Both the position numbers and the translations under genes were made by a program. 64,000 nucleotides of DNA from an uncultured Eubacterium sp. (GTDB lineage Bacteria; Bacillota; Clostridia; Peptostreptococcales; Anaerovoracaceae), in assembly GCA_946555345.1 (NCBI GenBank), contig CAMNSS010000017.1, positions 1 through 64,000 of the forward strand, given 5' to 3'. Shown here piece by piece: positions 1 through 17,834 of the stretch; positions within the stretch are counted from its first letter, which is position 1, and the number at the start of each line of letters is the position of its first letter. The notes below the pieces were generated by a model that saw only the letters and a list, made by a program, of their open reading frames with translations, was not told where the DNA came from and did not search any database.

Positions 1-55
1 GGGTTAGTTCCCCCAGCCGCCGCCCCATCCCGGCGGCCAGTATGATTGCCTGCAT
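1..55 (-). CDS. Nucleotidyltransferase, N-terminal fragment (cut by window edge)
   Basis: Only the first 18 codons lie in the window, starting at the ATG at 53-55 and running off base 1. They read MQAIILAAGMGRRLGELT, the textbook N-terminus of an NTP_transferase fold enzyme: beta strand, then the LAAGxGxRL nucleotide-binding loop. Such enzymes make NDP-sugars or CDP-alcohols. An AAGGAG ribosome binding site lies 6 bases upstream (about 62-67), so the start is secure. It is the last visible gene of the minus-strand flagellin-associated cluster. A choline/alcohol-phosphate cytidylyltransferase or sugar-1-phosphate nucleotidyltransferase are both possible; substrate specificity cannot be judged from this piece. 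Confidence 0.85.
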   Translation of the reverse strand, partial: MQAIILAAGMGRRLGELT

Positions 56-434
56 CTTTTTCTCCTTCTGCCAGGGGCTGGCCGCCCCTGGCGCTTGCGC
101 CTTTGCTTGTTCCTGCTACGTCTGCGTCCCTGCCTGCGTGCTGCATTCCAGTCGGCGTTCTGGCCGATCCACTACACTGCTACCCTTGCCAGCCCCATTG
201 CGCCAACCTGCGCTATGTCCGCATCCTTGCCTATGGCTATTACTCTATTAGCGTACCGTATTTACGTCTTCGTCTGCCCTGATTTGTCCAATCAGTATGC
301 TGTGTCTGCACCGATTGCCGCCGTTACAATTTCAACTGGTACGCCGTGGATTTCTCCGCTTGCACAGAAGCTAGGGCATATCTTCTTACGCTTTACGCTG
401 CATTTATTGGAAATTCCAATAAATGCATATTTTA
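56..434 (-). other. Gap upstream of the nucleotidyltransferase; hairpins, no gene
   Basis: About 380 bases between the GNAT gene stop and the nucleotidyltransferase start. Plus-strand open frames here show no family signal, are compositionally odd (Cys/Pro/Ala rich) and overlap the minus-strand leader, so I do not call them. A perfect 9-bp hairpin lies at 70-92 (GCCAGGGGC arm, 5-base loop), ending three bases before the ribosome binding site of the nucleotidyltransferase. A small GGCGCAAGCGCC stem sits beside it. Confidence 0.5.
399..427. repeat. 29-bp near-perfect palindrome after the GNAT gene
   Basis: Two 14-base arms (TGCATTTATTGGAA and its exact complement) flank a single central A. It sits 8 bases beyond the stop of the 435-1277 gene. 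There is no T-run, so it is not a classical intrinsic terminator. It could be a protein-binding site or an mRNA 3' stabilising stem. Confidence 0.6.
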
Positions 435-1277
435 CTAATCCAGCAACCAGTTTTCCATGTACTTATTCGTGAACTTCCAACCAAGTTTTTTATGGAGTTT
501 AACCGATGCAATATTTTCCAAATTCACGCTTGTCTTGCGTATGTCAGAAAATCCGCTACATGTGCAATAGTAAAATAAAATTGGAGCAAACCCATATAAT
601 TTATATTCTTCCTTGATAATCATCGCATCCGCATAACGTTTTCCGTTTTCGAGATGCCCGCTGGTATAGGCCAGAATCTCATCCTTATCGTTTACAATCG
701 CGACATAATTCCTGTCTTCAAATGTAGCTTTTATTTCATCTTCCGTCTGGTAGGGAATATGATAGTACTTGATCATGTCCTGACCGTCTATCAGCGCATT
801 GATTTGGTCATTGTAACTGTAATCAGCCCTTATGATGCGAAAGTTTTGATGCTCCAGGATTTTCTTGCTTCTCTGGTAATTTCGCTGGTGCGCCTCTTTG
901 AACGGCGCTGAATCCAATGTAAGGAAAACATTCGTATCTTTCAGGATAAACCCTTTTTCCTGCATTTGTTCTTCCATTTTCAACAGTTCCGCCTTCTTTT
1001 TATCCTTCACAAAACGCGTCCGGATCAGAGCCGGCTTGTCAAGCTCCGGCAAATCCCAGGATTGGCCAGGATCTATATGGAACAGCAGGCGGTAATACTT
1101 TTCTTCATCCAGAAAAAAGATAAGGCAACGATCGGAAACATGGTATTGAATCCGATTTAATTCAATAAAGCGTTTGATATCGTCTGAAAAAATATTATTA
1201 TTGGTAAATTTAACGCCTTTCTTCCGCATATCGTTGATTAACGTTCCATACGCCTCAATATCTTTCAATTCTTTCAT
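435..1277 (-). CDS. GNAT-type acyltransferase, cluster paralog 1
   Basis: A 280-residue soluble protein. The C-terminal half (about 150-280) has GNAT-like spacing: a strand pair around NDKDEILAYTSG, the segment IKEEYKLYGFAPILFYY, and a closing NIASVKLHKKLGWKFTNKY, which is the usual GNAT ending (N-x-A-x-x-L-Y/H-x-K-x-G-W). The N-terminal half is an unfamiliar partner domain shared with the paralog at 11413-12261. It lies 39 bases downstream of a carrier-protein gene. Known GNAT enzymes use acyl-CoA or acyl-ACP donors, so transfer of a carrier-bound acyl or aminoacyl group to a flagellar sugar is plausible. That role is inferred from context. The AAAGGAG site is somewhat far from the ATG (about 10 bases). 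Confidence 0.75.
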   Translation of the reverse strand: MKELKDIEAYGTLINDMRKKGVKFTNNNIFSDDIKRFIELNRIQYHVSDRCLIFFLDEEKYYRLLFHIDPGQSWDLPELDKPALIRTRFVKDKKKAELLKMEEQMQEKGFILKDTNVFLTLDSAPFKEAHQRNYQRSKKILEHQNFRIIRADYSYNDQINALIDGQDMIKYYHIPYQTEDEIKATFEDRNYVAIVNDKDEILAYTSGHLENGKRYADAMIIKEEYKLYGFAPILFYYCTCSGFSDIRKTSVNLENIASVKLHKKLGWKFTNKYMENWLLD

Positions 1278-1316
1278 TTATTCCATTCTCCTTTAGGAAT
1301 TTTTATCCGTTTTGTT

Positions 1317-1568
1317 TTAAACTGATCCAAGAATGCGCCCGATCATCTCAACCACGGAATCAACGGTCCTGAAATTATTCGGAACGACATATTGTGCTTC
1401 AATTTCAATGCCAAACGTATCTTCCAATTCCATCATCATTGGAACAATATCAAATGAAGAAATGATTCCATAAACCAACAAATCCTTGTCCTGATTGTCC
1501 TGAATTTCCTCATTTACCGTACACAATGCATTCAATACTTTTTTCCTCAGATCCGCTTTGTTGTCCAT
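1317..1568 (-). CDS. Stand-alone acyl/peptidyl carrier protein with altered attachment motif
   Basis: An 83-residue acidic four-helix carrier protein, closely related to the one at 7495-7737. The phosphopantetheine site reads IISSFDIV, with the attachment serine at residue 38. The Asp that normally precedes it (DSF/DSL) is Ser here, whereas the sister protein keeps IIDSFDIV. That Asp helps recognition by 4'-phosphopantetheinyl transferase, so loading may be less efficient or use a particular transferase. AGAGGA precedes the ATG at normal spacing. It sits between the DltA-like gene and a GNAT gene, so it may receive the adenylated acid and hand it to the GNAT. Confidence 0.85.
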   Translation of the reverse strand: MDNKADLRKKVLNALCTVNEEIQDNQDKDLLVYGIISSFDIVPMMMELEDTFGIEIEAQYVVPNNFRTVDSVVEMIGRILGSV

Positions 1569-1683
1569 TTTATGATTCCTCTCTTATCACATTGTAATGG
1601 TTTTATAAAATTTGTCGCTGATCATTACATCAAGATATCCTTGCGTCGTCGTACCATCCGTCTATGCTCAAATTCTACACCTA

Positions 1684-1800
1684 TTATTCTAGCATCCAGT
1701 TTTCCATATATTTATCTGTAAACTTCCAGCCCAGCTTTTCATAAAGCTTGACAGACGCTGAACTTGCTAAATCTATGCTTGTTTTCCGCGCAAAATTTCC
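1684..1800 (-). pseudogene. C-terminal remnant of a GNAT paralog
   Basis: Read on the minus strand, about 39 codons end in TAA at 1684-1686 and include RKTSIDLASSASVKLYEKLG followed by WKFTDKYMENWMLE. This matches 24 of 34 C-terminal residues of the intact GNAT at 435-1277. No start codon or N-terminal domain precedes it: the upstream sequence runs into the gap before the DltA-like stop at 1887. It is a truncated extra copy, probably left by recombination between repeated ACP-GNAT modules. Homology fades somewhere between 1800 and 1815. Confidence 0.85.
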
Positions 1801-1886
1801 ATGCGCTTTTTGCAAAACGATCCAAAGGTACGCCCGCTCGGTTTAACCGCCAGCCTGTTTATCCTAAAACAACCCCGCCCGCTTGA

Positions 1887-3425
1887 TTATATTAGCATCT
1901 GTAATTTCTTTCGATCCACTTTTCCATTCTGGTTTCGAGGTAGCTCGCTCAGGCAGATGATTTTTGACGGAACCATATATTCCGGAAGCCGCTGGCTTAA
2001 CGCCTCTTTTATCCGATTCCGAATTTTCTGTTCATCATTTTGTTCTGCCGCATCAGGCGCAAGGACGACAAATGCAGCTAAACGCCGCAATTTGTTATGA
2101 GCATCTAATTTTGGAATTACGACAGCGCTCGAAACGATTCCTAAACGTAACAGGTTCTGTTCGATGTCGCTTAACTCAATCCGATATCCGTGAAGCTGGA
2201 TCTGCATATCGGACCTGCCGCTAAAATGCAGAACGCCGTCTTCGTCCAAATAGCCCTGATCCCCTGTTTTATACGCATACCGCTGCTCAAAGCCTTGCAA
2301 ATATGGCACAAATGCTGCTTTTGTCAATTCCGGCTGCCTAAAATATCCTCGGCCAACCGTATCGCTTTTGATCACAATTTCACCTGCTTCATTCCGATCT
2401 GCCAGCGTCCCATCCGTCCGCCAGATTTCAATGCTGCAATCCGGCTTCGGCTTTCCTACCGGAAGCGCGCTTTCATCCTCTGCCAATTCTCTCGTTATAA
2501 TCTGGGATGTAACGGCCACCGTCGCCTCCGTAGGTCCGTATGCATTGATAATATCCGCAGCAGGAAACCGATCCATAAGCCGCTTCGCCGTCATATTGGG
2601 CAAAACCTCGCCGCAGAAAAAAAACATTTTTAACTTTGGCAAAAGAGCCTGTGAAAATTTTTTACTCATTAAACACATATCGGCTAACGAAGGCGTTGAG
2701 ACCCATACAACCGCTTCAGACTGCTCCATGGCCTGCAACACGCGCTTAAATTTATCCTGTATTGCATCGTCTATAATATACAGCGTTCCGCCCGTAAATA
2801 AACTGGTATACACATCCATGACAGACAGGTCAAAAGAGAACGGGGACTGGTTCAAGAAAACAAAATCGTCTCCCTGATATGGCTTCACCATGGATTCAGA
2901 CCATTGCAAAAAACGATCGATACAGCCTGCCGTAATTTCGACGCCCTTTGGCTTTCCCGTGCTTCCCGAAGTAAAGAGAATATATAAAATATCGTCTCCT
3001 TGGATCGCAGGGATAATATTGCCGCAATCCTGTTCACCATTGCAAATCCGTACGATCTCTTCCAGTGGGATCACCGAAAAAAAATCATCCTGCAACGACT
3101 CTGCCGCAAACACGATATGAGGCTGTATCGTTTCCATGATATCCCGCATGCGCTCCCTCGGCATGGACGTATCAACCGGACAATACGGATGCGCCGCTTT
3201 CATGCAGGCTAAAAAGATTACCAGCATATAAGGATTCTTATTACCATATACGATAATAGGCGATTTATCTTTCGGTACATTTTGATTGATATATGCCGCC
3301 AGTACATTAGAAAAACGTTCTAATGCTTCATACGTCAAAACCGCTTCCCGGCAGCTGTCATTGCGCACCGCAATCCGCTTCGGGCATTCCTGCGCATATT
3401 GTTTTATATTCTCCAGTAATTGCAT
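1887..3425 (-). CDS. DltA-like amino acid-activating (adenylation) enzyme
   Basis: A 512-residue adenylate-forming enzyme of the NRPS A-domain/DltA branch. Visible core motifs are the P-loop LFTSGSTGKPKGV near 150, SPFSFDLSVMD near 192-202, FFFCGEVLP, NAYGPTEATV near 295, KTGDQGY and NQNGKVDRKKL near 500, with the catalytic Lys. The FDLSVMD segment is very close to DltA, where the Asp of FD (around residue 197) binds the substrate amino group, so an amino acid substrate is likely. No DltB or DltD is nearby, so this is not a teichoic acid D-alanylation operon. It probably loads one of the cluster's carrier proteins. The ATG at 3423-3425, behind AAGGAG with 7-base spacing, is preferred over an upstream ATG at 3464. 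The identity of the amino acid is unknown. Confidence 0.85.
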   Translation of the reverse strand: MQLLENIKQYAQECPKRIAVRNDSCREAVLTYEALERFSNVLAAYINQNVPKDKSPIIVYGNKNPYMLVIFLACMKAAHPYCPVDTSMPRERMRDIMETIQPHIVFAAESLQDDFFSVIPLEEIVRICNGEQDCGNIIPAIQGDDILYILFTSGSTGKPKGVEITAGCIDRFLQWSESMVKPYQGDDFVFLNQSPFSFDLSVMDVYTSLFTGGTLYIIDDAIQDKFKRVLQAMEQSEAVVWVSTPSLADMCLMSKKFSQALLPKLKMFFFCGEVLPNMTAKRLMDRFPAADIINAYGPTEATVAVTSQIITRELAEDESALPVGKPKPDCSIEIWRTDGTLADRNEAGEIVIKSDTVGRGYFRQPELTKAAFVPYLQGFEQRYAYKTGDQGYLDEDGVLHFSGRSDMQIQLHGYRIELSDIEQNLLRLGIVSSAVVIPKLDAHNKLRRLAAFVVLAPDAAEQNDEQKIRNRIKEALSQRLPEYMVPSKIICLSELPRNQNGKVDRKKLQMLI

Positions 3426-3482
3426 GACATTTCTCCTTTTGCCCTGATCCTGCAACACGCTCACTGCAAATGAAATGATTCA

Positions 3483-6251
3483 TCACGCCTGCTTATATGC
3501 TCCGCTTTGATACGTTTCTTTCAGGCTGCGCCGGTTAATCTTCCCATTCGCATTGTGCGGCAGTTCCTCCTGCCATATGATTTTCTCCGGGATCATGTAG
3601 TCTGTAAGCTGCGTCTGCAACTGCTCCTTCACCTCTTTTTTCTCAAGCTGCTTTCCACTGTAAAACATCACGATCTTATTTCTTTTGTCATCGTAAATGC
3701 AAGCGCTCATGGAAATTCCCTCAATCTTGCCTGCGGCAGTTTCGATCTCGCCCAGCTCTACCCGGTGCCCCTTGTGCTTGATCTGATAATCTTTTCGTCC
3801 GGCATACATCAGTTCACCCTGTTCATTGTATCTTCCAAGGTCGCCTGTCCGGTATATTTTTTCCGGATATTGCGTATTTGCGGGATTCTGGATAAATGCC
3901 TTTTCCGTCTGTTCCGAGTTGTTGTAATACCCATACGCCAGACCGCATCCCCGTACGCAGATTTCCCCGAGTTCATCCCCTTCCACCAGCGCATTGTTTT
4001 CGTTTAAAACCAAAAGCTCCATATTCCTGCACGGCTTGCCGATCGGCAGGGGTTCATCGTTTTCAAAATCTCTGTCTACAATATAATAGGAACAGTTCAT
4101 CGTAATCTCTGTCATTCCATAAAGGTTCGCAAACGTCGCATCAGGCAAAGCCGCCCGCCACATATTCAGTTGCTTATTCGGCATCACTTCACCGCAAAAA
4201 AAGACTTTATTCAGGGTATCCGATTTCCAAGAAGACAAAGCGCGTACATTGGCAACCAGGCAGAGAGCCGACGGCACCCAGCAAATCGTCGTAATCTTTT
4301 TTGCATTGAGATAATCCAAAAGCTGTACCGGAAAACCAAAAAGTTCCTTCGGGATAATATGCACAGTGCACCCGTTTCGCACGCCCGTATAAATGTCAAA
4401 CGTGGAATTGTCAAAATAAAACGGCGACTGGTTTCCAAGCACATCGCGATCCGTGATTCCAAGCGTGCTGCCAATCCATTCTGCACTGTCAATGATCGCC
4501 CTGTGGCTGATCAATACCCCCTTGGGAAACCCTGTCGAGCCACTGGTAAAAAGTACGTAGAGCGGATCGGTTTCCAGCATGGATGCTTTAATCCGTTCAA
4601 GCGCCCGCACATCGCCAAATTCCTCAACCGCATCTTCATAAGAAACGACAGGAATCTCAAAATGCTCCGCCGTTTCCATATTTTCCTCATCTGCGATAAC
4701 CAGTTTCGGCTTTAAAATATCCATGATTTTCTGCATACGCTCTATCGGCATCGCTTCATCGATTGGACAATAGAAATTCCCGCTGTACACAACGCCAAAA
4801 AATGCCGTCACGCTATGCACGGATTTGCGCATTAAAACAGCAACCGGCTGCTTTTCAATGCCAAACTTCTTCGCAATATGGCTGCCGATGCTTCTCGCAT
4901 ATTCCCGCAGCTGATAGTAACGGATGAATTCCCGCTCATCGGAAAAAGCGGTTTTGCTTCCATACTGGTACGCACTGTGTTCCAAATAATCCAAAACGTT
5001 TGTGATCATTCCATCCTCCTCAAAATGAAGCAAACCATAAAGGGTTTGCGCATTCACGCAATAATCGGCAAAATATGCTACATATTCATCTGTATTCATA
5101 TAACGGATATTTTCATAAGATACAATCCGGTATATTTTTTCCGCCGCTTCCGCTTCCAAACCGAAATGTTTTAAAACGCAAGAATAGGGAGGAACCTCAC
5201 TGCCCGACCATTCGCACGCCGCTTCTGCAATGTCATCATAACAAATCCTGGATTCTTCATGGCCGATTATCCCAAAAATACACTTCAGCATATAGGCAAT
5301 AATTCGCGGATGCCATTCTTCAAGGCTCCTGCTTACGACAATGCTGGACTTCTGCCTGATAATTTCCTCTGCCAATGGGATATCCGCCAATTCATCCGAC
5401 TCCCTGATATATGCGATCGCCTCTTCAAAGTTTTTCTCAATCTGCGCTTTGTCCAGTAATTCCGGATCATAAAACGCATTTATAATATCTTTTTTTAACC
5501 ATTTTTCCCTGATGAAGCGTTCCATCATGAGATCCAGCGGCGAAAATGCATAGTATTTATACGGGATTTTGCTCATTTCATATTCCCGGAAACAATATTT
5601 GCTTAAATATCCATCTTTGTCCATCTGCGGATAGAGCCCTGCAAAATCATTTCCCGAAATTGCGATACGGATACACGGCGTTTTCATTTGATTTGCTTTA
5701 ATCAGGTTGCCTCCGTATCCCGCCACGCTCTTGATGCTGTAAATATACACGTCGCTTACCTTGGCAACGTGCTGATATTCCTGATATTGCCTTACTTCTC
5801 CCCTGTAAAAATTATAATAATTATAATACTTCACCGTATGCTGTGCAGAAAACCCGGGACAGGCCTTTAGCGCTGCGGTAAGCTGCGACATTGCGCCGCC
5901 TCCCATAACAACGGCCAGCTTCTTTCGCTGCACAACTGCGCGGACAACATAGATGCTGGCATAGTCAATATATTCCACAAGCTGCAACAGGTTCAATTTA
6001 TTCTGTGAACGGATAAACTGCCCGGTAATCACAATATATCGATCAGGGCCGATTTCATAATCGTCAAACCAGACAGTTTCAACCCCGTATTCGGAAAACG
6101 GTTGCAACTCCAGTTCCTCCGCAAAGTCCGTCAGATGAACGATATCGGAAAAAAACGGCAGCAATTCCTTGATAAAGCGTTCCGATCCTTCATCATTTCC
6201 ATAAACGGCAATCCTGCCGGATTGCAGCTTGCGGTCAATCTGTGTTCTCAT
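3483..6251 (-). CDS. WcbI-like domain fused to a DltA-like adenylation domain
   Basis: 922 residues in two parts. Residues 1-400 resemble the separate protein encoded just upstream (6257-7498): a Rossmann-like start (GRIAVYGNDEGSERF), a WcbI-type core starting KLAVVMGGGAMSQL near residue 108, and the shared DVYIYS...YPQMDKDGYL segment. The WcbI Cys position (GTC in the neighbour) is Gly here, so this half may be non-catalytic. Residues 415-915 form a full A domain: LFTSGSTGFPKGV near 567, SPFYFDNSTFD with the amino-group-binding Asp, FFCGEVMP, NLYGMTEITM, RTGDLGRY and NANGKINRRSL. It is 5 bases downstream of its paralog, so both are co-translated. I infer amino acid activation coupled to a glycan-handling domain; the fusion is unfamiliar to me. 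Confidence 0.8.
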   Translation of the reverse strand: MRTQIDRKLQSGRIAVYGNDEGSERFIKELLPFFSDIVHLTDFAEELELQPFSEYGVETVWFDDYEIGPDRYIVITGQFIRSQNKLNLLQLVEYIDYASIYVVRAVVQRKKLAVVMGGGAMSQLTAALKACPGFSAQHTVKYYNYYNFYRGEVRQYQEYQHVAKVSDVYIYSIKSVAGYGGNLIKANQMKTPCIRIAISGNDFAGLYPQMDKDGYLSKYCFREYEMSKIPYKYYAFSPLDLMMERFIREKWLKKDIINAFYDPELLDKAQIEKNFEEAIAYIRESDELADIPLAEEIIRQKSSIVVSRSLEEWHPRIIAYMLKCIFGIIGHEESRICYDDIAEAACEWSGSEVPPYSCVLKHFGLEAEAAEKIYRIVSYENIRYMNTDEYVAYFADYCVNAQTLYGLLHFEEDGMITNVLDYLEHSAYQYGSKTAFSDEREFIRYYQLREYARSIGSHIAKKFGIEKQPVAVLMRKSVHSVTAFFGVVYSGNFYCPIDEAMPIERMQKIMDILKPKLVIADEENMETAEHFEIPVVSYEDAVEEFGDVRALERIKASMLETDPLYVLFTSGSTGFPKGVLISHRAIIDSAEWIGSTLGITDRDVLGNQSPFYFDNSTFDIYTGVRNGCTVHIIPKELFGFPVQLLDYLNAKKITTICWVPSALCLVANVRALSSWKSDTLNKVFFCGEVMPNKQLNMWRAALPDATFANLYGMTEITMNCSYYIVDRDFENDEPLPIGKPCRNMELLVLNENNALVEGDELGEICVRGCGLAYGYYNNSEQTEKAFIQNPANTQYPEKIYRTGDLGRYNEQGELMYAGRKDYQIKHKGHRVELGEIETAAGKIEGISMSACIYDDKRNKIVMFYSGKQLEKKEVKEQLQTQLTDYMIPEKIIWQEELPHNANGKINRRSLKETYQSGAYKQA

Positions 6252-6256
6252 GAGCC

Positions 6257-7498
6257 TTACCAGCCTTTCCTAATTTTTAAAACAGCCTGTATATATGATG
6301 CGTAATGTATCACATATTCTTTAAAAGTCATCAGGCGGATGCCTTTGCAAGTCATTACTTCATATCGGGTGTTTTCGTCAATCCATGATAACCCTAAGTA
6401 TTTTGCAACCGATGGATAGATCGGCATATCGCTGCTCCTATGTATGTACTCAGGCGCTTCCTTAATAATTTCGTCAAGCGCTTCCTCGCATATCTCCAAA
6501 TGGCCTAAAACTTGCTTCACATATTCCCACAACAACGCCTTCTTCGGATGGGTAAAGTCTTGCCATAGCATTTTCGCCTGGTACTGGCTTTTGATAAAGT
6601 CCCCTACCTTCACTTCGAGTCCCTTTTCTGCCATTTTCAGCGTTTTGAAACATATCCTCAGGTGTTTTTTCAATTCTTTTTCACTGTAGTAATCATCCGC
6701 TGATAAAATGCGGCAGATTTCCTCCGGTGATTTTCCTTCTTCCACCAGCCTTGTAATGTTCGCATCTTCCCTGCTGTACATCAAATGCCAGAATTTATTG
6801 TCAAACGGCGCCGCCACTTCAAACAGCCAGTTAGCATTGTAGCCCATATTGTGAAGCTGCGGCCAATAACCGGGAAAAGTCGCCTTTGAAACTCCGATCA
6901 TCTTGCAGTCCGCAGGAAGGTTTTTTCTCTGCATATTATACGCTTCACTGGGATGGAGCAACTTATTCGCATAGACATATATATCACAAATATCTTTCGC
7001 ATAATATAAGCGGCGGATCTCTGCGATCGTATCCTTTTCTTTGATATTTCCCTGTACAAAAATGCTGACGTACTGATCCGTAAATGCCGGGACGCTGCCA
7101 AGCGAATAATAGACGTCCCTTAAAATGCAAGTGCCGTAAAAAAGAGCCAGCTTCTTGTCCTCCAATACAGCTTCCGCCACCCTGTAATCGATAAAATCCT
7201 CAAACATAGCATATCCATCGCATTCCAACTGGCTGGCGATGTTATCAAAAGCGATAAAAACGCCCAGCACGACATAATACCTGCCTTTCAGCTCCTGCGC
7301 CTGGTATTGGCGGATATCCAGCTCACCGCAAAACCGCTTTTCGCCCCATTCCGTACTCGTATTGGTCACACAAAATGCAAAGTTCAGCTTATCCTTATAC
7401 ATTTCATAAAACTCATGCGCCCTCATTCCTGCGCCGAAAAGCACGATTTCCTTATTTTGCAGTTGCTCCAGCATTCTTTGCCTTAATAATTCTTTCAT
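6257..7498 (-). CDS. WcbI-like polysaccharide biosynthesis protein
   Basis: 413 residues. The N-terminus (EIVLFGAGMRAHEFYEMYKD) looks like the small Rossmann-type domain often placed before sugar-modifying enzymes. From about residue 115 the core reads KLALFYGTCILRDVYYSL, similar to the conserved G-N/T-C start of WcbI-family proteins, which are thought to bind CoA and act as acyltransferases on capsular sugars. The rest is paralogous to the N-terminal 400 residues of the next gene. The start overlaps the carrier-protein stop by 4 bases (ATGA), indicating translational coupling. Role in sugar acylation is inferred; the family assignment itself is moderate. Confidence 0.6.
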   Translation of the reverse strand: MKELLRQRMLEQLQNKEIVLFGAGMRAHEFYEMYKDKLNFAFCVTNTSTEWGEKRFCGELDIRQYQAQELKGRYYVVLGVFIAFDNIASQLECDGYAMFEDFIDYRVAEAVLEDKKLALFYGTCILRDVYYSLGSVPAFTDQYVSIFVQGNIKEKDTIAEIRRLYYAKDICDIYVYANKLLHPSEAYNMQRKNLPADCKMIGVSKATFPGYWPQLHNMGYNANWLFEVAAPFDNKFWHLMYSREDANITRLVEEGKSPEEICRILSADDYYSEKELKKHLRICFKTLKMAEKGLEVKVGDFIKSQYQAKMLWQDFTHPKKALLWEYVKQVLGHLEICEEALDEIIKEAPEYIHRSSDMPIYPSVAKYLGLSWIDENTRYEVMTCKGIRLMTFKEYVIHYASYIQAVLKIRKGW

Positions 7499-8907: not shown

Positions 8908-8957
8908 AAGCCCTCCCATCATTCTTTCTTCGCAACGGACAGATACCTGTTCCCTGC

Positions 8958-10370: not shown

Positions 10371-10391
10371 ATTCAAACTCCTTTTACCCTG

Positions 10392-11063: not shown

Positions 11064-11164
11064 GAACACGCCTCCTTTTATGCACGGGAAGGTTTTGCAA
11101 GCATTGGCCTGCCTGGCCTATATCCCCTGATACACGGCAAAGGCCGCCAGATATTTTTCGGCAT

Positions 11165-11398
11165 TTAAATCTCCACGCCATATTTTTTCAATATTTCAAT
11201 TCCTTTGTCGTAGGAATTGATCTGGATAATATCCGCTCCTTCCAGCGAAATTTGAAAAGCATCCTCCAGGCCCGTAATAAAAAACATATGCCCGATTGAA
11301 TCCCAGGCTTCCGTGACGCCCATCGCAATATCCGGGCCAATTTGTTCCGGCGGCAGGTCAAAAGCCTTGGCAAATACTTCTACATACTTTTCCTTCAT
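11165..11398 (-). CDS. Third stand-alone acyl carrier protein
   Basis: 77 residues from the ATG at 11396-11398, with AAGGAG 7 bases upstream. The attachment site is EAWDSIGHMFF (Ser34), typical of discrete carrier proteins in sugar-acylation and vio-type flagellar loci, and different from the IIDSFDIV type of the other two here. It lies 14 bases after the GNAT gene at 11413-12261 and before the MBL hydrolase and acid ligase. These genes probably form one activation, loading and transfer module. Confidence 0.88.
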   Translation of the reverse strand: MKEKYVEVFAKAFDLPPEQIGPDIAMGVTEAWDSIGHMFFITGLEDAFQISLEGADIIQINSYDKGIEILKKYGVEI

Positions 11399-11412
11399 TT
11401 TCTTGCTCCTTT

Positions 11413-12261
11413 TTATCCGTCTTCCCGCAACCAATTATCCGTATACCTGTTTGTGAACTCCCATCCCAGCCTTTCATGAAGCCTGATGGATTCCGCATTA
11501 TCCAACAGCATATACCCTTTCAGGACAGGATACTCTAAAAAGCTGCCCCTGTAATATTGTAAAATCGGCGCAAGGCTGTATTTAACCTTATACTCATCGC
11601 GTACGACAAATTCCGCACCATAGCAGCCGCCGTTTATTGTAATGCAATGATAAGCCAATACCTGGTCCGTGTCGTCCAAGATACAGAGCACATTACCGCT
11701 GTCATAAAGCGCTTTTGTTTCCGCTTCCGCCTGATACGGAAAATGGTAATAACGCATCATGTCCTGCTGCCTGAGCAATGCTTCAACCTGTTCGTGGTAA
11801 GAATAATCGACCGTTTCAAGCCTGAAATTCATCGCTTCAAGCATTTTTTCCAGCCGTTGGAACTGCTTTCGGTATTCCTCCCTGCGTTCATCTATATTCC
11901 ACTTGATCTGCACCGCAGTATCCTTCAAGACAAACCCATCGGCCTTTAGCCACTTTTCCATCGCAAGCTGCGCATCTTTCTTGCGGTCCTTTAGGTAATC
12001 GATCTGTACAAGGACAGGTTTTCCCACGCCCGGCAAACGGTACGCTTTCTTGTAATCCGTATGCAAAAACGCCCGGTAATACTTTTTCTCATCAGCCAGA
12101 AAAGTGACGCCGCCCTCATGTCGTACTTGATAGAACCGTCCGCCCTGGAGCAATCGATTTACATCGTCCTGCATCAAGTAATTATTTGTAAATAGCTCCC
12201 TTGATTTCCGCAGTACGTTTACTTCGTTCATATACGCATCCGGATTTTGTAAACGCTCCAT
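11413..12261 (-). CDS. GNAT-type acyltransferase, cluster paralog 2
   Basis: 282 residues, colinear over its whole length with the 280-residue protein at 435-1277. Shared blocks include an N-terminal FTNN, DEKKYYR near residue 80, FQRLEKMLEAMNFRL, QQDMMRYYHFPYQ near 165, and the GNAT ending NAESIRLHERLGWEFTNRY. The conserved MxRYYHxPYQ segment may form part of the acceptor pocket. A strong AAGGAGG site precedes the ATG. Like its paralog it is adjacent to a carrier-protein gene, which argues that carrier-bound acyl groups are its donors. Confidence 0.75.
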   Translation of the reverse strand: MERLQNPDAYMNEVNVLRKSRELFTNNYLMQDDVNRLLQGGRFYQVRHEGGVTFLADEKKYYRAFLHTDYKKAYRLPGVGKPVLVQIDYLKDRKKDAQLAMEKWLKADGFVLKDTAVQIKWNIDERREEYRKQFQRLEKMLEAMNFRLETVDYSYHEQVEALLRQQDMMRYYHFPYQAEAETKALYDSGNVLCILDDTDQVLAYHCITINGGCYGAEFVVRDEYKVKYSLAPILQYYRGSFLEYPVLKGYMLLDNAESIRLHERLGWEFTNRYTDNWLREDG

Positions 12262-12307
12262 GAAAGCATTCCTCCTTCGGTCTTTTAAGCAATGAATCCA
12301 GTCAGTT

Positions 12308-13096
12308 TTATTCCTGCGCCATCCTCGTTAATTTCCCATAACAGCCGCACTTCCTGTCAACCTTATCGTGGTAGCGCATCATCTGCGGCGTGACGGAAAA
12401 CGTATAGCTCCGCTTGCCTTCCTGTTTTAACGCCCTTGCAATATGACTGCTGATGATGGGGTAATACCCTTTATCCCGGTAATCGGGATGGACGATCGTC
12501 CCGCTGATGACGGCATACTTTTTCGTCTCCGCATAAGCCGCCGTGTGCGCTATGATCCTGCCCCCCTCCCTGATGACATAGCTGCGCCCCGTCCCGCTCC
12601 GCATCCTGCTTTTCAACTGGCATGCCAGATTTTCCTCATCGTAATGCCCGCCCAGCTTCTGGTCCATGCCGATCAGGCGCGCAATTTCTGCGGCATCCGT
12701 CTCCGCCGCCCTTTCCACATTCATGTAACCAGGCAACCGGTTTTCACTGCAAACCTCGTAAACTGAACCATATTCGGCTTGGTAAATGCCGTTTGCCTCC
12801 TCTGCAAGCCTGCGGACTATGGTTTCCGGACCGGAAACCATCTTTGGCTGGAATTGTCCCATAACCCGGACTGCCGCCGCCATGTCTCCCGCGCCGTTTC
12901 TGCCATAAACCTGAAAGCTCTCATGGTACCGGAGCAAAACCAGCTCCGGCCTGCTTTTTTCGCCCTGTACCCAGACATCCATGTCGGCATGTTCTTTTTT
13001 CCCATTGACGAGGTCCATGTAAATGTACAGACAGTTTTCGATATCTTCCTCAAGGTACGGAAGCAACTGTTCGTAGTGTGTGATTTTCCCAAGCAT
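12308..13096 (-). CDS. GNAT-family N-acetyltransferase
   Basis: 262 residues. A variable N-terminal domain is followed from about 125 by a GNAT domain: MNVERAAETDAAEIARLI, the acetyl-CoA-binding strand AVISGTIVHPDYRDKGYYP (a Q/RxxGxG/A-like loop), and a C-terminal helix leading to a Cys/Gly ending. It resembles the broad family annotated as GNAT acetyltransferases with an N-terminal domain. It is first in a tight tandem after the CDP-glycerol-transferase-like gene and is not closely related to the other two GNATs. No strong ribosome binding site is visible. Acylation of a sugar amine is plausible but not shown. Confidence 0.75.
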   Translation of the reverse strand: MLGKITHYEQLLPYLEEDIENCLYIYMDLVNGKKEHADMDVWVQGEKSRPELVLLRYHESFQVYGRNGAGDMAAAVRVMGQFQPKMVSGPETIVRRLAEEANGIYQAEYGSVYEVCSENRLPGYMNVERAAETDAAEIARLIGMDQKLGGHYDEENLACQLKSRMRSGTGRSYVIREGGRIIAHTAAYAETKKYAVISGTIVHPDYRDKGYYPIISSHIARALKQEGKRSYTFSVTPQMMRYHDKVDRKCGCYGKLTRMAQE

Positions 13097-13129
13097 CGTT
13101 AATCGCCCGCGTACTCGCTTTCCTTCTTC

Positions 13130-14683
13130 CTAAAACTGCAATTTCCCCATGAGGAACGAGAATATTTTTTCCCCCGCATCACCATTTAGGTTGCCGAACC
13201 CTTTCTGCGCATCCTCCATGCGCCCTTCCCGCATCGGATCCTTGCCGGATTTCACGATTTGGAGGAAATCTTGCCGGTATAGCTGGTTTTCATTTCTTAC
13301 TTTTTCCTCCAACGACAAGCTAAAATAATTGTGCAAATAGCTGACGGGCTGGTTTTCATTGTACAAAAAACGATATTGCGGCTCAAAAAGAGCGATTGGT
13401 TTTCCCGTTATCATGTACTCGGAAATCAGGGAAGTAAAAGTCGTATAAAAAGCATCCGAACGTTGGAATGCAGGGATATAATCCGCATTCCGGTCGATGA
13501 CCATGTTCTCCGATTCCTCAATCAGCTGTTCCATTTCTGCGATAAATTCCATTTCCCGTACAAGCCCCCTGCTCCTGAGCATATCCTTCATCAGCGGGTG
13601 CGGCCTCCAGATGACGCCAAAATCTGAAAGCTCCTTCATGTCCCGGAGGAATCCTCCGATTGCTTTGATCCCGAAACTGTCTTCTGTAGAACCCTTCGCC
13701 GTTTCCCATTCCCGCCATGCCGCGAAATACGCTAAACCAATATTAAGCAGCAAAACATGCCTGTCTCCAAGTTTCCGCTCCCACTCCTCGGGCAAAGGCT
13801 GTTTTTCTTTCAATTTGTTGACGATGGCGTCCGCCTTCGGCGAGCCGAATGTGAGAAGTTTTTCTTTCGCAACGCCCGCGTCGCTGTACAGCTTCGCCAC
13901 CCGCCTCGACTGCACGACGACATAATCCACATACTGCAGCGCCTTCGTCTGGCACATGAACGGGTGCGTCGCCACCGGGTTAAACGCGCCAAAATTTGCG
14001 TAAGGGCTGTACACGAGCAGGTCCGTGTGCTGCTTCAGGGCCTGCGAGTGGTATTCGTCCGGGATGCGCGTCAGCGTGTTCGTGTCGTCGTACGGGTTGT
14101 GGATGAAAATCATGTCCGGGCGCGCCTTTTCGATGTCGTATTCCTTGTATGAAACGGTTGGCACGCAATCCGGGAATTCCTCCCCCTCATAGGCAAACTC
14201 GCCCTTTTCCTCCGCCAGGTACAGCTTGTAGTACGGCACGGGCATCACCGTCACGTTGCAATTTTCATAGCCGATTGCCGCCTGCCAGATGCTTTCCAAC
14301 GCGGTCCACATGGACGCCTTGTAGGGGAGGAACAGGATTTCCAGTTTATCGTCAGGCAACCCGTATTTAATGCCGTGGCTTATCCTGGACAGCAATTCCC
14401 TGCACCGTTTTATGTATGGCTTCAATGAGCCGCCCTCCTGCGTGATGAGGTAAAGCTGCTCGCACAGCTCCTCGAGCAGCGCCACGGTCTGTGTCCCTTC
14501 CCCCGCCACATTTTCTATGGCATTGCCAACTGCAACGGCGCAGTCCTGGCAGTCGGCGCACAAAGAAACCAGAACGCTTTCGCCCGTTTTATCCGCTTCC
14601 CGCTGACAGCGTTCAATATGGGAAAAGGCCTCTTCCATCGTATTCAGTAATTCTATTAGCTGTTTTTTCTGGTATCTCCGCAC
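13130..14683 (-). CDS. CDP-glycerol glycerophosphotransferase-like protein
   Basis: About 517 residues, soluble. The central part (about 115-480) has features of the TagB/TagF-like GT-B fold family: EILFLPYKASMWTALESIW, IFIHNPYD, VYSPYANFGAF, VVVQSRRVAKLYSDAGV, LLTFGSPKAD, VIWRPHPLMKD and SDAFYTTFTSLISEYMITGKPIALF (the usual D-x-x-T-S end). In C. difficile a protein of this type takes part in phosphodiester-linked flagellin decoration. I chose the GTG at 14681-14683, preceded by GAGGAG at 7 bases; the frame stays open to 14743. A sigma-28-like promoter lies about 200 bases upstream. The polyol or amino-alcohol phosphate it transfers is unknown. Confidence 0.75.
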   Translation of the reverse strand: MRRYQKKQLIELLNTMEEAFSHIERCQREADKTGESVLVSLCADCQDCAVAVGNAIENVAGEGTQTVALLEELCEQLYLITQEGGSLKPYIKRCRELLSRISHGIKYGLPDDKLEILFLPYKASMWTALESIWQAAIGYENCNVTVMPVPYYKLYLAEEKGEFAYEGEEFPDCVPTVSYKEYDIEKARPDMIFIHNPYDDTNTLTRIPDEYHSQALKQHTDLLVYSPYANFGAFNPVATHPFMCQTKALQYVDYVVVQSRRVAKLYSDAGVAKEKLLTFGSPKADAIVNKLKEKQPLPEEWERKLGDRHVLLLNIGLAYFAAWREWETAKGSTEDSFGIKAIGGFLRDMKELSDFGVIWRPHPLMKDMLRSRGLVREMEFIAEMEQLIEESENMVIDRNADYIPAFQRSDAFYTTFTSLISEYMITGKPIALFEPQYRFLYNENQPVSYLHNYFSLSLEEKVRNENQLYRQDFLQIVKSGKDPMREGRMEDAQKGFGNLNGDAGEKIFSFLMGKLQF

Positions 14684-15111
14684 ACACAATCTCCTCTGTC
14701 TAAATGCCGGCTTGCCTGCAAGCCGATCGCTTTTATGTAACACAGCCGCTTCACCGCTTCTTTTTCAGAAATAAACTTTGTCATATTTCCAAAATATTCC
14801 CGATTTGCTTGGCTTCTGAAATAAGCACCGATTTTATATATTTTATTTTTTACAAAATAAGATATATATACTTTAATATATATCGGCATAACCACATCAA
14901 AGCTTAGTTATTTTTCCGTAAAAAGTCTATCCAAAAATTAGGGGATTCCCGCTATATTACCCGATAAAAATGATTGCGGCTCTATGCCTGCGCCAAATCA
15001 ATCCGGGCGGACAATGCCGAGATAACGCTTGAGGATATAAGTTTCGTTCTTTACCGCATTCCGTTTTTTACGCTAATTCCTGCCATGCTTTAACGCCATG
15101 CCATCGTTCCC
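14684..15111 (-). other. Gap between glycosyltransferase and modification genes
   Basis: 428 bases without a supportable gene. It holds a very AT-rich stretch (about 14830-14885) and the sigma-28-like promoter at 14880-14906. I see no clear intrinsic terminator after the glycosyltransferase, so read-through transcription is possible. Confidence 0.5.
14880..14906 (-). promoter_or_regulatory. Sigma-28 (SigD)-like promoter
   Basis: Minus strand: TAAG (14903-14906), 16 bases, then CCGATAT (14880-14886), in the context GCCGATATA. This fits the Firmicutes flagellar sigma consensus TAAA-N15-CCGATAT. The flagellin promoter at 17809-17834 has the same -35 TAAG and -10 CCGATAT. It would put the modification genes from 14683 downward under flagellar control. 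Confidence 0.6.
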
Positions 15112-16557
15112 TTACTCAATCTGTCCCCTGACCTCCGGCGGGATCGCCTCATAAGCCAGCTGCGCAAGCTCCGCAAACCCTTCTTCACCCGCAAACCGAT
15201 ACAAAAACAGCAAATCCTTCAAATTATTGGCGTCGTACAGCTTGCAGAGAAACTGCCAATAGCCTTCCGCGCCCATTCCCGGCTTGTGTTCCATTTTAAA
15301 TGCCACGATCAAAATTTTAATGGCGTCCCCAGAATACTGGTTGACCTGCAACGCCTTCACCGCATACTGCACCGCTTTCGGCAGATTCCCTTCCGAAAGC
15401 GCCTGCATCGCAATCACTTTATTCGGAACTTCCAGATCCCCCGCCATCGTCGTAACGTCAGCGCCTGTATACTGTTCTAGTTTTTGCAAAGCGCGCTCAA
15501 ACAGTTCTGCGGACTGTTTCATGTCGCCGTCCCGAAAGTACATGATCGCAGTATAATAATCCAAGTCGGGATAACGATCCCCGCCATAAGGCTTCAAGGT
15601 TTCATTTATTTTCAAAAATTCTTCTTTTGTCGCAGACGCCGGCTCTGTGTGCCTGATCCGCATGATTTGCATCCCCGCCCTGATATATGCGATCTCATCA
15701 TCCGGACTAGCAACTCCCTCCGGTTTCATGCCGTCATCCCAGAGCAGCTTGCGGTAGCAGTCCAAAGCGGCCTCCTGCTTATCCTGCATGATATACGCAT
15801 CGCCAAGATACATCAGCCGCATCGCATTGTGCGGATTTTCTTCTAAGTCAGCCTTGAGCATTCTGACATTCCGCTCACCTTTATCCGGCCTGCTGATATG
15901 CGCGCCGTATCCCGTATGAAAAATGGTAATTTCGTTCTGCGCATCATAAGCAGCCATTCTCTCCTTTCCAGCGTAGGTGAGTATCTCATGTATTCTGTAT
16001 TGATAACGCAATCCCGGAACATTGCGAAAAAACCTGTCCTGCGGGAAAGCGCCCATAATCTGGCCGTTTTCATTCAAATTAACAATTTTCGTCCTTAAAA
16101 AGTCGATCTCTTTATGCGGATGAATCTCCGCCAGCCGCTTTATCGCTTTTTTTGCATCTTCCTCCGGCAAAAACTCATCCGCATCGAGGAATGCGATCCA
16201 GTTTCCGCTCGCCTGCTCGATGGCGTAATTCTTTGCGGCAGAAAAATCATCATTCCATTCAAAATGGAATACCTTTGCCCCCATTTTTTCCGCCAGCTCT
16301 GCGGTTTTATCTTCTGAACCTGTATCCACCACGATCTGTTCAAAGACAAACCCCTTCCCCCAGGAAAGCGCCTTCTCGATATTCCGTTCTTCATTTTTAA
16401 CGATCATGCACTGTGAGAGCCTGATGGATGAAGCAGGTGAAACCGCACCCTGCCGCGCATGATTTTTATGTCCGTTCGCAATGCTGCCGTGACCGTTTGC
16501 CCTATGCTTTTGATTATTTTTTTTCTTAGACTTTTTTTTATTTGCTGATTTCGCCAT
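15112..16557 (-). CDS. Family 2 glycosyltransferase with TPR region (flagellin glycosyltransferase candidate)
   Basis: 481 residues starting at the ATG 16555-16557 (GGAGG, 7 bases). A very basic Lys/Asn-rich tail of about 35 residues is followed by a GT2 domain: LSQCMIVKNEERNIEKAL, IVVDTGSEDKTAELAE, FHFEWNDDFSAAKNYA and the metal-binding FLDADEF near 124. From about 250 onward tetratricopeptide-like helices occur (NAMRLMYLGDAYIMQDKQEA, KAVQYAVKALQVNQYSG). This GT2-plus-TPR layout is that of clostridial flagellin O-glycosyltransferases, including the enzyme that adds GlcNAc to C. difficile flagellin. It is next to flagellin and has its own sigma-A promoter. The sugar is not determinable here. 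Confidence 0.85.
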   Translation of the reverse strand: MAKSANKKKSKKKNNQKHRANGHGSIANGHKNHARQGAVSPASSIRLSQCMIVKNEERNIEKALSWGKGFVFEQIVVDTGSEDKTAELAEKMGAKVFHFEWNDDFSAAKNYAIEQASGNWIAFLDADEFLPEEDAKKAIKRLAEIHPHKEIDFLRTKIVNLNENGQIMGAFPQDRFFRNVPGLRYQYRIHEILTYAGKERMAAYDAQNEITIFHTGYGAHISRPDKGERNVRMLKADLEENPHNAMRLMYLGDAYIMQDKQEAALDCYRKLLWDDGMKPEGVASPDDEIAYIRAGMQIMRIRHTEPASATKEEFLKINETLKPYGGDRYPDLDYYTAIMYFRDGDMKQSAELFERALQKLEQYTGADVTTMAGDLEVPNKVIAMQALSEGNLPKAVQYAVKALQVNQYSGDAIKILIVAFKMEHKPGMGAEGYWQFLCKLYDANNLKDLLFLYRFAGEEGFAELAQLAYEAIPPEVRGQIE

Positions 16558-16744
16558 AAATGCGCCTCCAATTAAATCATTTTTTTGGAGCAATGCCCGA
16601 TGAAACGGCAAAAGAAATAAGCGTCCTCAAGCAGGCCCCGGACGATCCATAAAACAACCGCCTCACAGATCATATTCCATGCTACGCAAACACTACGCCG
16701 CAAACACAAAGGAATGAAGCTTATAAACAATAAAACTCATTTTC

Positions 16745-16773
16745 ATTATAAAGGATGCCATGAATATCTTCAA
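16745..16773 (-). promoter_or_regulatory. Sigma-A promoter for the glycosyltransferase
   Basis: Minus strand TTGAAG (16768-16773), 17 bases, TATAAT (16745-16750). It starts just after the flagellin terminator and about 190 bases before the glycosyltransferase ATG, so that gene need not depend on flagellin read-through. Confidence 0.65.
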
Positions 16774-16778
16774 CATGA

Positions 16779-16812
16779 AAAAAGAGCCGAATCCGAAGAT
16801 GCGGCTCTTTTT
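16779..16812 (-). terminator. Intrinsic terminator of flagellin
   Basis: 11-bp stem (16779-16789 with 16802-16812, GAGCCG core) and a 12-base loop. On the minus strand it is followed by a T-run, 37 bases after the flagellin stop. Confidence 0.88.
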
Positions 16813-16848
16813 CGTTCATGAGAATTATCTTTTCTCTGACAAACAGAG

Positions 16849-17703
16849 TTACTGTAATAACTGCAGTACGCCCTGTGGAACCATGTTGGCCTGAGCCAGC
16901 ATAGCCTGTGATGCCTGGATAAGGATGTTGTTCTTCGTGTAAGCCATCATTTCCTTAGCCATGTCTACGTCACGGATTCTGGATTCAGCTGCTGTAATGT
17001 TCTCGTTCTGAACGCTCAAGTTGCTGATCGTGTGTTCCAGTCTGTTCTGTAATGCACCGAAATCTGAACGCATTGAGGAAATACCGTCGATTGCCTGGTT
17101 GATAACTGTGATCGCTGCCTTAGCATCTGCTGCCTTTGAAATGTCGATATCGTTGAGGACAACATCTACATCAGCACCTGATTCATCTTTACCAGTTATT
17201 TCCGCTGCGGACATCGTCGTCAGTCCGATGCTGATCGTGTTGTGGCTCTGTCCAGTTTCGCCAACGTGCAGGTCGATCTGCGTCTTTGATCCGTCAAACA
17301 GCTTCGTGCCGTTGAAGTTGGATGCATCGCTGATTCTGTCGATTTCCTTGCACAGTGCAGTGATTTCCTTCTGCATTTCGATTCTGTTGGAGCTGCTGTA
17401 AGTTCCGTTTGCGGACTGTACAGCCAGCGCTACCATTCTGTTCAGCATGCTGTGTACTTCTGTTAAAGCACCTTCAGCAGTCTGTACGAGGGATACGCCG
17501 TCTTCTGCATTTTTCTGAGCTGTTTCGAGACCAGTCATCTGTGCTCTCATCTTCTCGGAAATAGCCAGACCTGCGGCGTCATCGCCTGCTCTGTTGATTC
17601 TGTAACCTGATGATAACTTTTCCAGGTTCTTCGTCAGAGCGCTGTTGTTGTTTGTCAGATTTCTGTGTGAGTTTAAAGCTGGAATGTTGTGTTGAATTCT
17701 CAT
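16849..17703 (-). CDS. hag: Flagellin
   Basis: 284 residues from MRIQHNIPALN; the ATG at 17701-17703 has AGGAGG about 9 bases upstream, so the longer reading frame is not used. The N-terminal D0/D1 region (LSSGYRINRAGDDAAGLAISEKMRAQ..., NAEDGVSLVQTAEGAL) and the C-terminal region (FGALQNRLEHTISNL, ESRIRDVDMAKEMM, ILIQASQAMLAQAN, VLQLLQ) are canonical. The central section (about 140-210) is short, with Ser/Thr-containing loops such as GETGQSHNTISIGLTTMS that could carry O-glycans. The sigma-28 promoter gives a leader of roughly 100 bases, and a strong terminator follows. Filament subunit exported by the flagellar type III system. Confidence 0.97.
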   Translation of the reverse strand: MRIQHNIPALNSHRNLTNNNSALTKNLEKLSSGYRINRAGDDAAGLAISEKMRAQMTGLETAQKNAEDGVSLVQTAEGALTEVHSMLNRMVALAVQSANGTYSSSNRIEMQKEITALCKEIDRISDASNFNGTKLFDGSKTQIDLHVGETGQSHNTISIGLTTMSAAEITGKDESGADVDVVLNDIDISKAADAKAAITVINQAIDGISSMRSDFGALQNRLEHTISNLSVQNENITAAESRIRDVDMAKEMMAYTKNNILIQASQAMLAQANMVPQGVLQLLQ

Positions 17704-17808
17704 TTTCCTTACCTCCTGGTACATTTCAGAGGAACTTCCATTTTTCCTCCTACATAAATACTTAAAAATAATTAAATTTTTAACCGTAAGTTTTGGCTTA
17801 CATAATGG

Positions 17809-17834
17809 ATATCGGAATAATCCGGGAAGACTTA
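17809..17834 (-). promoter_or_regulatory. Sigma-28 promoter of flagellin
   Basis: Minus strand TAAG (17831-17834), 15 bases, CCGATAT (17809-17815). This is an excellent match to the flagellar sigma consensus, placed about 105 bases before the flagellin start codon. Confidence 0.85.

Follow-up and report, generated by a model that had tools for sequence, protein, structure and literature searches.

The window analysed here, 64,000 nucleotides at the start of contig CAMNSS010000017.1 from an uncultured Eubacterium sp. (Anaerovoracaceae; assembly GCA_946555345.1), begins with an island of adenylate-forming ligases, discrete carrier proteins and acyltransferases beside a flagellin gene, which raises the question of what these genes build and whether flagellin is their target. 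The initial annotation of the sequence had proposed that adenylated amino acids and an organic acid are loaded on carriers and transferred to the flagellar sugar. We lean, by no great measure, towards a wider reading, in which a carrier-based acyl/aminoacyl module has been added to a phosphodiester-linked flagellin modification like that of C. difficile type A, a core that the initial annotation had not named and that we infer by analogy. Support for it comes from the gene content, the genomic context of the phosphotransferase, a match to CobD of the presumed fusion partner of the nucleotidyltransferase, as read from relatives, the pocket residues of the ligases, the conserved pairing of carriers with transferases, and purifying selection.

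On the minus strand, from position 17724 down to base 1, we found the whole set of genes as first annotated: flagellin, a GT2 glycosyltransferase with TPR repeats (GT2-TPR) and 14 further genes, 16 in all with the last one cut, together with a GNAT remnant (Table 1). Pfam matches back flagellin, GT2-TPR, the Glyphos_transf protein, GNAT1, the metallo-beta-lactamase-fold (MBL) hydrolase, the three AMP-binding enzymes, the TylF/Methyltransf_24 protein, two carriers and WcbI. The softer points of this inventory are carrier 1, GNAT2 and GNAT3, none of which has a valid Pfam match. Carrier 1 is identified by a paralogue in its own genome (66% identity) and by a 43% identical homologue that lies between a GNAT and a ligase in genome G366; GNAT2 and GNAT3 owe their identification to a profile, built with two remote rows, that weakly matches GNATs of solved structure (best E 0.006), and a PBC match of GNAT2 below the Pfam cut-off was taken as spurious. 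The WcbI-like part of the 922-aa protein likewise lacks a Pfam match and is visible only against the free WcbI, to which it is 21% identical (E 1e-16). The GNAT remnant is real: an open stretch of ~30 residues resembles the C-terminal end of the complete GNAT. The genome has two filament-type flagellins among those found, of which this is the smaller one, and the neighbouring GT2-TPR likely adds its first sugar.

Table 1 Features of the flagellin-adjoining island, in order along the minus strand, with the identity of each protein to its paralogue in the second copy on contig C6.
Feature	Position	Strand	Basis	Identity to C6 paralogue
Flagellin	16849..17724	-	Flagellin_N + Flagellin_C (Pfam)	
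Terminator-like hairpin just 3' of flagellin, 3' arm ending in a U-run	16774..16820	-	fold -22 kcal/mol, z -5.4	
GT2 glycosyltransferase with TPR repeats	15112..16611	-	Pfam; homologues adjoin FliC in L148, L149, L150, L185, L187, L188	
Glyphos_transf family phosphotransferase, CD0244 type	13130..14743	-	Pfam, E 3e-9; paralogue	81%
GNAT1 acyltransferase	12308..13096	-	Pfam, profile search; paralogue	83%
GNAT2, GNAT-like protein with N-terminal extension, adjoins carrier 1 in both copies	11413..12261	-	weak profile match	45%
Carrier protein 1, WDSIGHM motif, paired with the likely organic-acid ligase	11165..11398	-	homologue and paralogue	66%
MBL hydrolase	10392..11069	-	Pfam; alignment	53%
AMP-forming ligase without the amino-acid-binding Asp	8958..10376	-	Pfam AMP-binding; pocket residues	49%
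TylF/Methyltransf_24 methyltransferase, C2185-like N-terminal domain	7795..8961	-	Pfam	no counterpart
Carrier protein 2, DltC-like, DSFDIV	7495..7737	-	Pfam; paralogue	96%
WcbI acyltransferase-like protein	6257..7498	-	Pfam WcbI; Gly-Thr-Cys of pantetheine-binding site kept	79%
922-aa fusion: degenerate WcbI-like domain (Cys lost) + amino-acid adenylation domain	3483..6251	-	Pfam AMP-binding; comparison with free WcbI	81%
DltA-type D-amino-acid:carrier ligase (start 3425 preferred over 3464)	1887..3425	-	NF003417, 555 bits	50%
Remnant: last ~30 codons of a GNAT3-like gene	~1683..1788	-	resembles end of complete GNAT	
Carrier protein 3, DltC-like, SSFDIV	1317..1568	-	Pfam 20.1 bits, just below cut-off of 20.8	71%
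GNAT3, family of GNAT2, adjoins carrier 3 in both copies	435..1277	-	weak profile match	65%
First 18 codons of nucleotidyltransferase, cut at contig end	1..55	-	probably LicC-like cytidylyltransferase fused to CobD-like pyridoxal phosphate enzyme	

The pocket residues of the three ligases point to two kinds of substrate. The DltA-type enzyme passes the NF003417 cut-off of 476 bits but does not reach that of TIGR01734 (524 against 559.85 bits). It aligns end to end (E 1e-130) with PDB 3fcc, which we take to be the B. cereus DltA and which, with 3dhv, is the nearest structure by sequence; its ten pocket residues are DLMSFCAVAK, against DLMSLCTVAK in 3fcc as read by eye from the alignment, with GrsA numbering and a choice of columns that we presume to apply. 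The 922-aa fusion has DNFWFCLMNK in both copies and keeps the Asp that binds the alpha-amino group, while the third ligase (8958..10376) reads TYSGQAMARK. Amino acids are thus the predicted substrates of the DltA-type and WcbI-fused ligases, and since the amino-acid-binding Asp is absent from the third, this enzyme likely takes an organic acid. It is 54% identical to a ligase of G366 that lies with homologues of GNAT1, carrier 1 and LuxE, directly next to the last. The MBL protein retains its metal ligands in alignment, judged by what we assume to be the ligand motif, and is perhaps a thioesterase; its similarity to SolJ of solanimycin biosynthesis is weak (35.7 bits, far below the cut-off).

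The free WcbI scores 50 bits against PF18588 (cut-off 29.2) and matches the B. pseudomallei enzyme weakly in sequence (PDB 4bqn, E 0.011), and the Cys of its conserved Gly-Thr-Cys corresponds to Cys14 of that protein. The available portion of the B. pseudomallei study describes a disulfide between Cys14 and coenzyme A (CoA) and a protein that is inactive alone, for which a partner was proposed (PMC4104973). In the WcbI-like domain fused to the ligase this Cys is replaced in both copies, and the domain has no Pfam match to WcbI. Here a relative of this CoA-binding capsule enzyme lies between a carrier and a WcbI-fused ligase, and this position makes both of them candidate WcbI partners.

The gene set recurs in the same genome. 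A second, diverged and rearranged copy at C6:121576-135649 contains 12 paralogous genes and the start of the same nucleotidyltransferase; it has an extra SDR reductase with no window counterpart, and TylF is missing from it. Reading frames are open in all 12 pairs, and the ratio of nonsynonymous to synonymous divergence (dN/dS) is 0.06-0.31 in the six pairs with computable dS, synonymous sites being saturated in the other six. Purifying selection acts on the six measurable pairs, and together with the 12 open pairs this argues that the gene set is not a chance assembly. Despite the rearrangement, both copies keep carrier 1 next to GNAT2, carrier 3 next to GNAT3, and carrier 2, WcbI and the fusion in one run, which suggests that these carriers and transferases are cognate partners.

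Divergence is unevenly spread along the two copies. The outer genes are the least diverged (phosphotransferase dS 0.56, GNAT1 dS 0.34, and the 55 identical bases of the nucleotidyltransferase), and the inner ones, with dS of 1.3 or more, are older, so that the inner cassette appears to have been exchanged between shared flanks. The phosphotransferase and GNAT1 genes also have a G+C content of 0.52-0.53 against 0.38-0.48 for the inner genes. Ahead of the C6 copy (L025, L026) lie a gene of the phage-integrase family and one whose product has a Cas12f1-like TNB domain.

Window base 1 is the end of the contig, and the gene list is therefore incomplete. The first 55 bases of the window recur unchanged at the right end of contig C6 (C6:135595-135649), and the far end of a gene resembling an NTP_transferase/aminotransferase (NTP-AT) fusion is found at C17:71165-71293, the right end of the window's own contig, and at C27:6-134, the left end of another; the reference for this match is the NTP-AT fusion of genome G018 (L035:222-2039). 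Given the 55-bp identity and these far ends, a single near-identical gene, collapsed in the assembly, probably ends both locus copies and links C6, C17 and C27. The contigs could be joined in two ways, either C6 to the right end of C17 and the left end of C17 to C27, or C17 closed on itself; the first, though not proven, is favoured by the ordinary chromosomal genes on C17. The best match of the second domain of the G018 fusion is threonine-phosphate decarboxylase CobD, at 178 bits, which does not reach the TIGR01140 equivalog cut-off of 290.55. By this comparison the cut gene probably encodes a fusion of a cytidylyltransferase with a CobD-like enzyme, which would yield a CDP-amino-alcohol with a cappable amine. 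A third WcbI gene (C17:69893-71149; L027:5893-7149) comes immediately behind the far end of this collapsed gene; next in line are a 175-aa gene, SerC and an apgM/proposed homoserine kinase gene, which might provide a phospho-amino acid.

We wondered whether relatives of these genes also lie beside flagella. Searches with the phosphotransferase gave a match in 8 of 148 genomes of the order (E<=1e-3) and in 16 of 391 genomes of the class (E<=1e-15), the window's own genome included in both. In 10 of the 16 other genomes with a match at E<=1e-40, this CD0244-type phosphotransferase lies near flagellar genes, the latter called by blastp at E<=1e-6. The seeds for this test came from three genomes: the window's own, G482 and G531. 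Because the last two also contribute loci to the 16, some matches are self-matches, though both do hold FliC and other flagellar genes. Four weaker class matches (E 4e-17 to 4e-16), none of them flagellar, were counted apart, and G492 (E 7e-4) was left out. The ten flagellar loci (L148-L151, L184, L185, L187-L189, L191) encode proteins of ~500 aa (free) or ~850 aa, apart from genome G426, where the gene is broken into three open reading frames (ORFs), and six of the ten have a GT2-TPR homologue beside FliC.

The closest comparisons come from the same order, where the window phosphotransferase matches genes in the FliC-GT2 loci of three genomes at E 1e-59 to 1e-70. In G554 the order, by Pfam, is FliC, GT2, HAD, NTP transferase, methyltransferase and phosphotransferase, and G531, judged from the start of its sequences, looks similar; in G482 FliC, GT2 and phosphotransferase are followed by an aminotransferase and an NTP transferase (both by Pfam) and then by genes that look like LicD and a methyltransferase. 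The same order as in G554 is reported for C. difficile cd0239-cd0244, for which the accessible text of PMC10714395 proposes that CD0244 moves phosphothreonine from CDP-threonine to the GlcNAc on FliC.

The acyl genes behave differently. None of 12 loci with the NTP-AT fusion, none of 14 with GNAT1 and none of 20 with the adenylation domain of the 922-aa protein is flagellar (Fisher p against the phosphotransferase 9e-4, 3e-4 and 3e-5, respectively). These p values overstate independence because several genomes in each set share a genus, and the zero counts are lower bounds because many of the fetched stretches are short (3.3 to 21.5 kb). The NTP-AT set consists of 11 matches spanning both domains (out of 16 genomes) plus G018, whose locus enters two of the sets; for GNAT1 every one of the 14 other genomes reaching E<=1e-15 was taken; and the adenylation-domain set joins 9 loci from genus relatives with the 11 best of 80 named loci, from 530 confirmed candidates. 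The flagellar test covered these 20, the other 69 named loci (34% identity or less) lying outside it, and in all 80 named loci tblastn with the window flagellin, phosphotransferase, WcbI, GNATs and MBL gave no match. Judged by these contrasting counts, the core appears flagellar, and the acyl module resembles an addition of the envelope-glycan type.

Several observations weigh against a flagellar role for the whole locus. Besides the three zero counts, no acyl module was found within the fetched stretches of the ten flagellar phosphotransferase loci, and its relatives sit elsewhere, in part beside LicD or MBOAT-like genes. A partly similar set occurs in two genus relatives, G004 and G018, which share genes for an adenylation domain, a GNAT1-like protein, a reductase or reductase-like protein and LicD-type proteins (the reductase and LicD genes of G004 identified from the start of the sequence), to which G004 adds a carrier, KAS III and MBL and G018 the NTP-AT fusion; flagellin was found in neither, and in the genus sample of 41 genomes it occurs only in the window's own. 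No flagellin or GT2-TPR gene adjoins the C6 copy, the other filament-type flagellin lying ~20 kb away (C6:99707-101587). A hairpin separates the window flagellin from the rest of the locus and, with its strong fold and U-run, makes a single transcript with flagellin doubtful. A consensus terminator scan did not list this hairpin. The body of the cut nucleotidyltransferase gene was not found in the assembly, its nature being read from its two ends only. Finally, neither the window locus nor the C6 copy has the HAD protein (CD0241) or the CD0243-type methyltransferase of type A, the search having covered these two loci.

These points feed the most serious alternative, namely that the module decorates an envelope glycan (a wall polymer, capsule or glycolipid) and came to lie beside flagellin by chance insertion, only FliC and GT2-TPR being flagellar. 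It would account for the position of the C6 copy, for the zero counts with their LicD and MBOAT-like neighbours, for the hairpin together with ~370 bp between GT2-TPR and phosphotransferase, for the fact that the phosphotransferase and not GT2-TPR opens both copies, and for the six of 16 strong phosphotransferase relatives with no flagellar gene in the fetched stretch. Against it, the phosphotransferase that heads both copies belongs to the flagellar-associated family, no genes for export of a wall or capsule polymer are seen in either copy, and the one MBOAT gene that the genome yielded lies on contig C1, apart from DltA and the carriers. We regard this explanation as possible though unlikely.

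The same MBOAT gene, 64% identical to that of a genus relative, bears on a second alternative, in which the DltA and DltC-like genes D-alanylate teichoic acid with an MBOAT protein supplied from elsewhere in the genome. The match of DltA to its subfamily agrees with this, but neither copy has DltB or DltD, the MBOAT gene adjoins neither a carrier nor DltA, and the two DltA proteins are just 50% identical to each other and each embedded in the module, which makes D-alanylation improbable. That the carriers, ligases, GNATs and MBL instead build a small secreted amide or peptide by a minimal carrier pathway, with no glycan involved, is slightly less probable again: the discrete adenylation and carrier proteins and the weak SolJ similarity would fit, whereas the phosphotransferase, nucleotidyltransferase, WcbI and TylF are glycan-type genes and no condensation domain, thioesterase domain or exporter occurs among the island genes scanned.

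The proposed transfer of amino acids and an organic acid to the flagellar sugar accordingly stands in part. Two ligases that keep the Asp and one that lacks it, the carrier-transferase pairs of both copies and the context of the phosphotransferase family speak for it, while the counts for the acyl and aminoacyl genes and the C6 copy speak against. The initial annotation had named homologous sets lying mostly away from flagella as an outcome that would count against its proposal; the acyl genes in the relatives examined and the C6 copy do lie so, and the phosphotransferase in most of its strong relatives does not. Flagellin as the target of the locus is what we infer.

The favoured scheme, a type-A-like phosphodiester core with an added acyl module, can be set out in three steps, each proposed from family and context. 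GT2-TPR would attach a sugar to flagellin. The missing cytidylyltransferase/CobD-like fusion would then make a CDP-activated amino alcohol by decarboxylation from phosphothreonine or phosphoserine, and the CD0244-type phosphotransferase would move the phospho-amino-alcohol onto the sugar, by analogy with the transfer from CDP-threonine proposed for C. difficile type A. Capping with amino acids and an organic acid would come last, on the free amine or on a hydroxyl of the sugar. For this, the DltC-like carriers 2 and 3 would receive amino acids from DltA and the WcbI-fused ligase, carrier 1 would receive an organic acid from the third ligase, and the groups would be passed on by the presumed cognate transferases (GNAT2 from carrier 1, GNAT3 from carrier 3, WcbI from carrier 2). 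Further possible roles are the clearing of misloaded carriers, by the MBL protein, and methylation, by TylF. The acyl module would be an envelope-glycan module recruited to the flagellar core, and the two diverged copies probably make two versions of the cap.

A bolder form of this scheme is rather doubtful. In it the carrier proteins would work as an assembly line, extending the phosphodiester-linked amino alcohol of flagellin by a short, peptide-like acyl-aminoacyl chain; cap modules would be swapped between conserved flanks, phosphotransferase-GNAT1 on one side and the nucleotidyltransferase fusion on the other, to give two alternative caps in one genome; and the missing partner of WcbI would be the Cys-less WcbI domain fused to the ligase together with the carrier.

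How does the locus compare with described systems? Phosphodiester-linked groups are found on the flagellins of C. difficile type A and P. aeruginosa b-type (PMC10714395, PMC11833859, both seen as excerpts). The window locus shares with type A (cd0240-cd0244) and b-type (pa1088-pa1091) FliC, an adjoining GT2-TPR, a CD0244-type phosphotransferase, whose likeness to CD0244 rests on family and setting and not on direct comparison, and a nucleotidyltransferase. It differs in that this nucleotidyltransferase is probably fused to a CobD-like enzyme, in the addition of three ligases, three carriers, three GNATs, WcbI and MBL, and in its duplication in the genome. C. difficile type B flagellin, in the excerpts of PMC5207245 and PMC5207246, carries a taurinyl-Ala-Gly cap, and ligase and acyltransferase genes adjoin its flagellin glycosyltransferase genes. 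The window likewise has ligase and acyltransferase genes beside a flagellin glycosyltransferase gene, with an amino-acid cap as our proposal, but type B uses an ATP-grasp ligase and a FemAB-like protein where the window has adenylation domains, carriers and GNAT/WcbI transferases; neither an ATP-grasp ligase nor a FemAB-like transferase has a Pfam match among the island genes scanned, and the D-Ala-D-Ala ligase family (ATP-grasp) gene at window 23577-24635 lies outside the island.

A group II flagellin glycosylation island of Aeromonas contains a carrier, an AMP synthetase and a ketoreductase, according to the excerpted text of PMC7874193. Carrier and AMP ligase are present here too, a reductase occurs only in the C6 copy, and LuxE adjoins the closest ligase relative found (in G366). 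Of the Aeromonas set of acyl carrier protein (ACP), 3-oxoacyl-ACP reductase, AMP synthetase, luxE and luxC, the last two are seen in neither copy, nor are pseudaminic acid genes seen in the island, which has two further amino-acid ligases, WcbI and a phosphotransferase. The DltA-type ligase and DltC-like carriers recall the Dlt system (DltABCD) and dlt-like operons, but the locus has no DltB (MBOAT) or DltD, and soluble GNAT/WcbI proteins are the presumed transferases. The WcbI of the window resembles that of the B. pseudomallei capsule (PDB 4bqn; PMC4104973, in the portion available) in Pfam family and in the active-site Cys of the free protein, but its neighbours are a carrier and a ligase to which another WcbI-like domain, one without the Cys, is fused.

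The window locus lacks defining features of each of these systems. The initial annotation knew of no described counterpart, and the combination of parts was indeed not met in the literature searched, which covers few subscription journals, among the matches listed; the parts are each already in print, as phosphodiester-linked flagellin groups, amino-acid or peptidyl caps (type B; PMC5207245) and carrier, reductase and AMP synthetase in a flagellin island (PMC7874193), both papers as excerpted. If our reading holds, phosphodiester-linked flagellin groups and carrier-based acylation would be joined in one locus, and flagellar surface chemistry could vary by swapping a ligase-carrier-transferase cassette between fixed outer genes. 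A 2014 paper states, in the part accessible, that no CD0244 orthologue is co-located with other type A genes in any other organism (PMC4441256), and a 2023 paper, likewise in part, assigns a CD0244-like domain to PA1091 (PMC10714395); members of the CD0244-type family lie near flagellar genes in 10 genomes sampled here.

Other candidate relatives of the island genes were discarded. Apparent TylF homologues in other flagellar loci were short pieces, two scanned ORFs carrying FkbM-type or GT2 domains and not TylF; apparent WcbI homologues in G327 and G526 were a DXD glycosyltransferase and LicD; and a carrier match in L187 lies inside a 241-aa reductase-like ORF and was treated as spurious. Among 391 genomes of the class the N-terminal half of the 922-aa protein occurs only in the window's own (E<=1e-8), and no plasmid record has a single place covering 80% of the protein. 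Pattern searches gave 27 matches for the GNAT2/GNAT3 family in genome contigs and 110 for the WcbI family in viral contigs, none of which was confirmed.

Two groups of relatives have settings of their own. In genus g33 (L172, L174, L175, L177, L179-L182) a GNAT1-like gene adjoins a ~600-aa AMP-ligase-like gene in a similar neighbourhood. Among the relatives nearest to the fused adenylation domain, several (L029, L030, L058-L068) lie in dlt-like sets with a carrier, accompanied by genes that, from the start of their sequences, resemble MBOAT and Asp/Glu or alanine racemases, and possibly handle a D-amino acid other than Ala.

Elsewhere in the window, a divergent gene upstream of flagellin (18460-22527) encodes a 1355-aa, surface adhesin-like protein with YDG and chitobiase C-terminal-like domains. 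It is followed at 22828-25586 by a row encoding, by Pfam names only, a VanY-like carboxypeptidase, a D-Ala-D-Ala ligase family protein and a VanW-like protein. Two neighbouring AMP-binding proteins of 599 and 579 aa are encoded at 56821-60386, outside the island.

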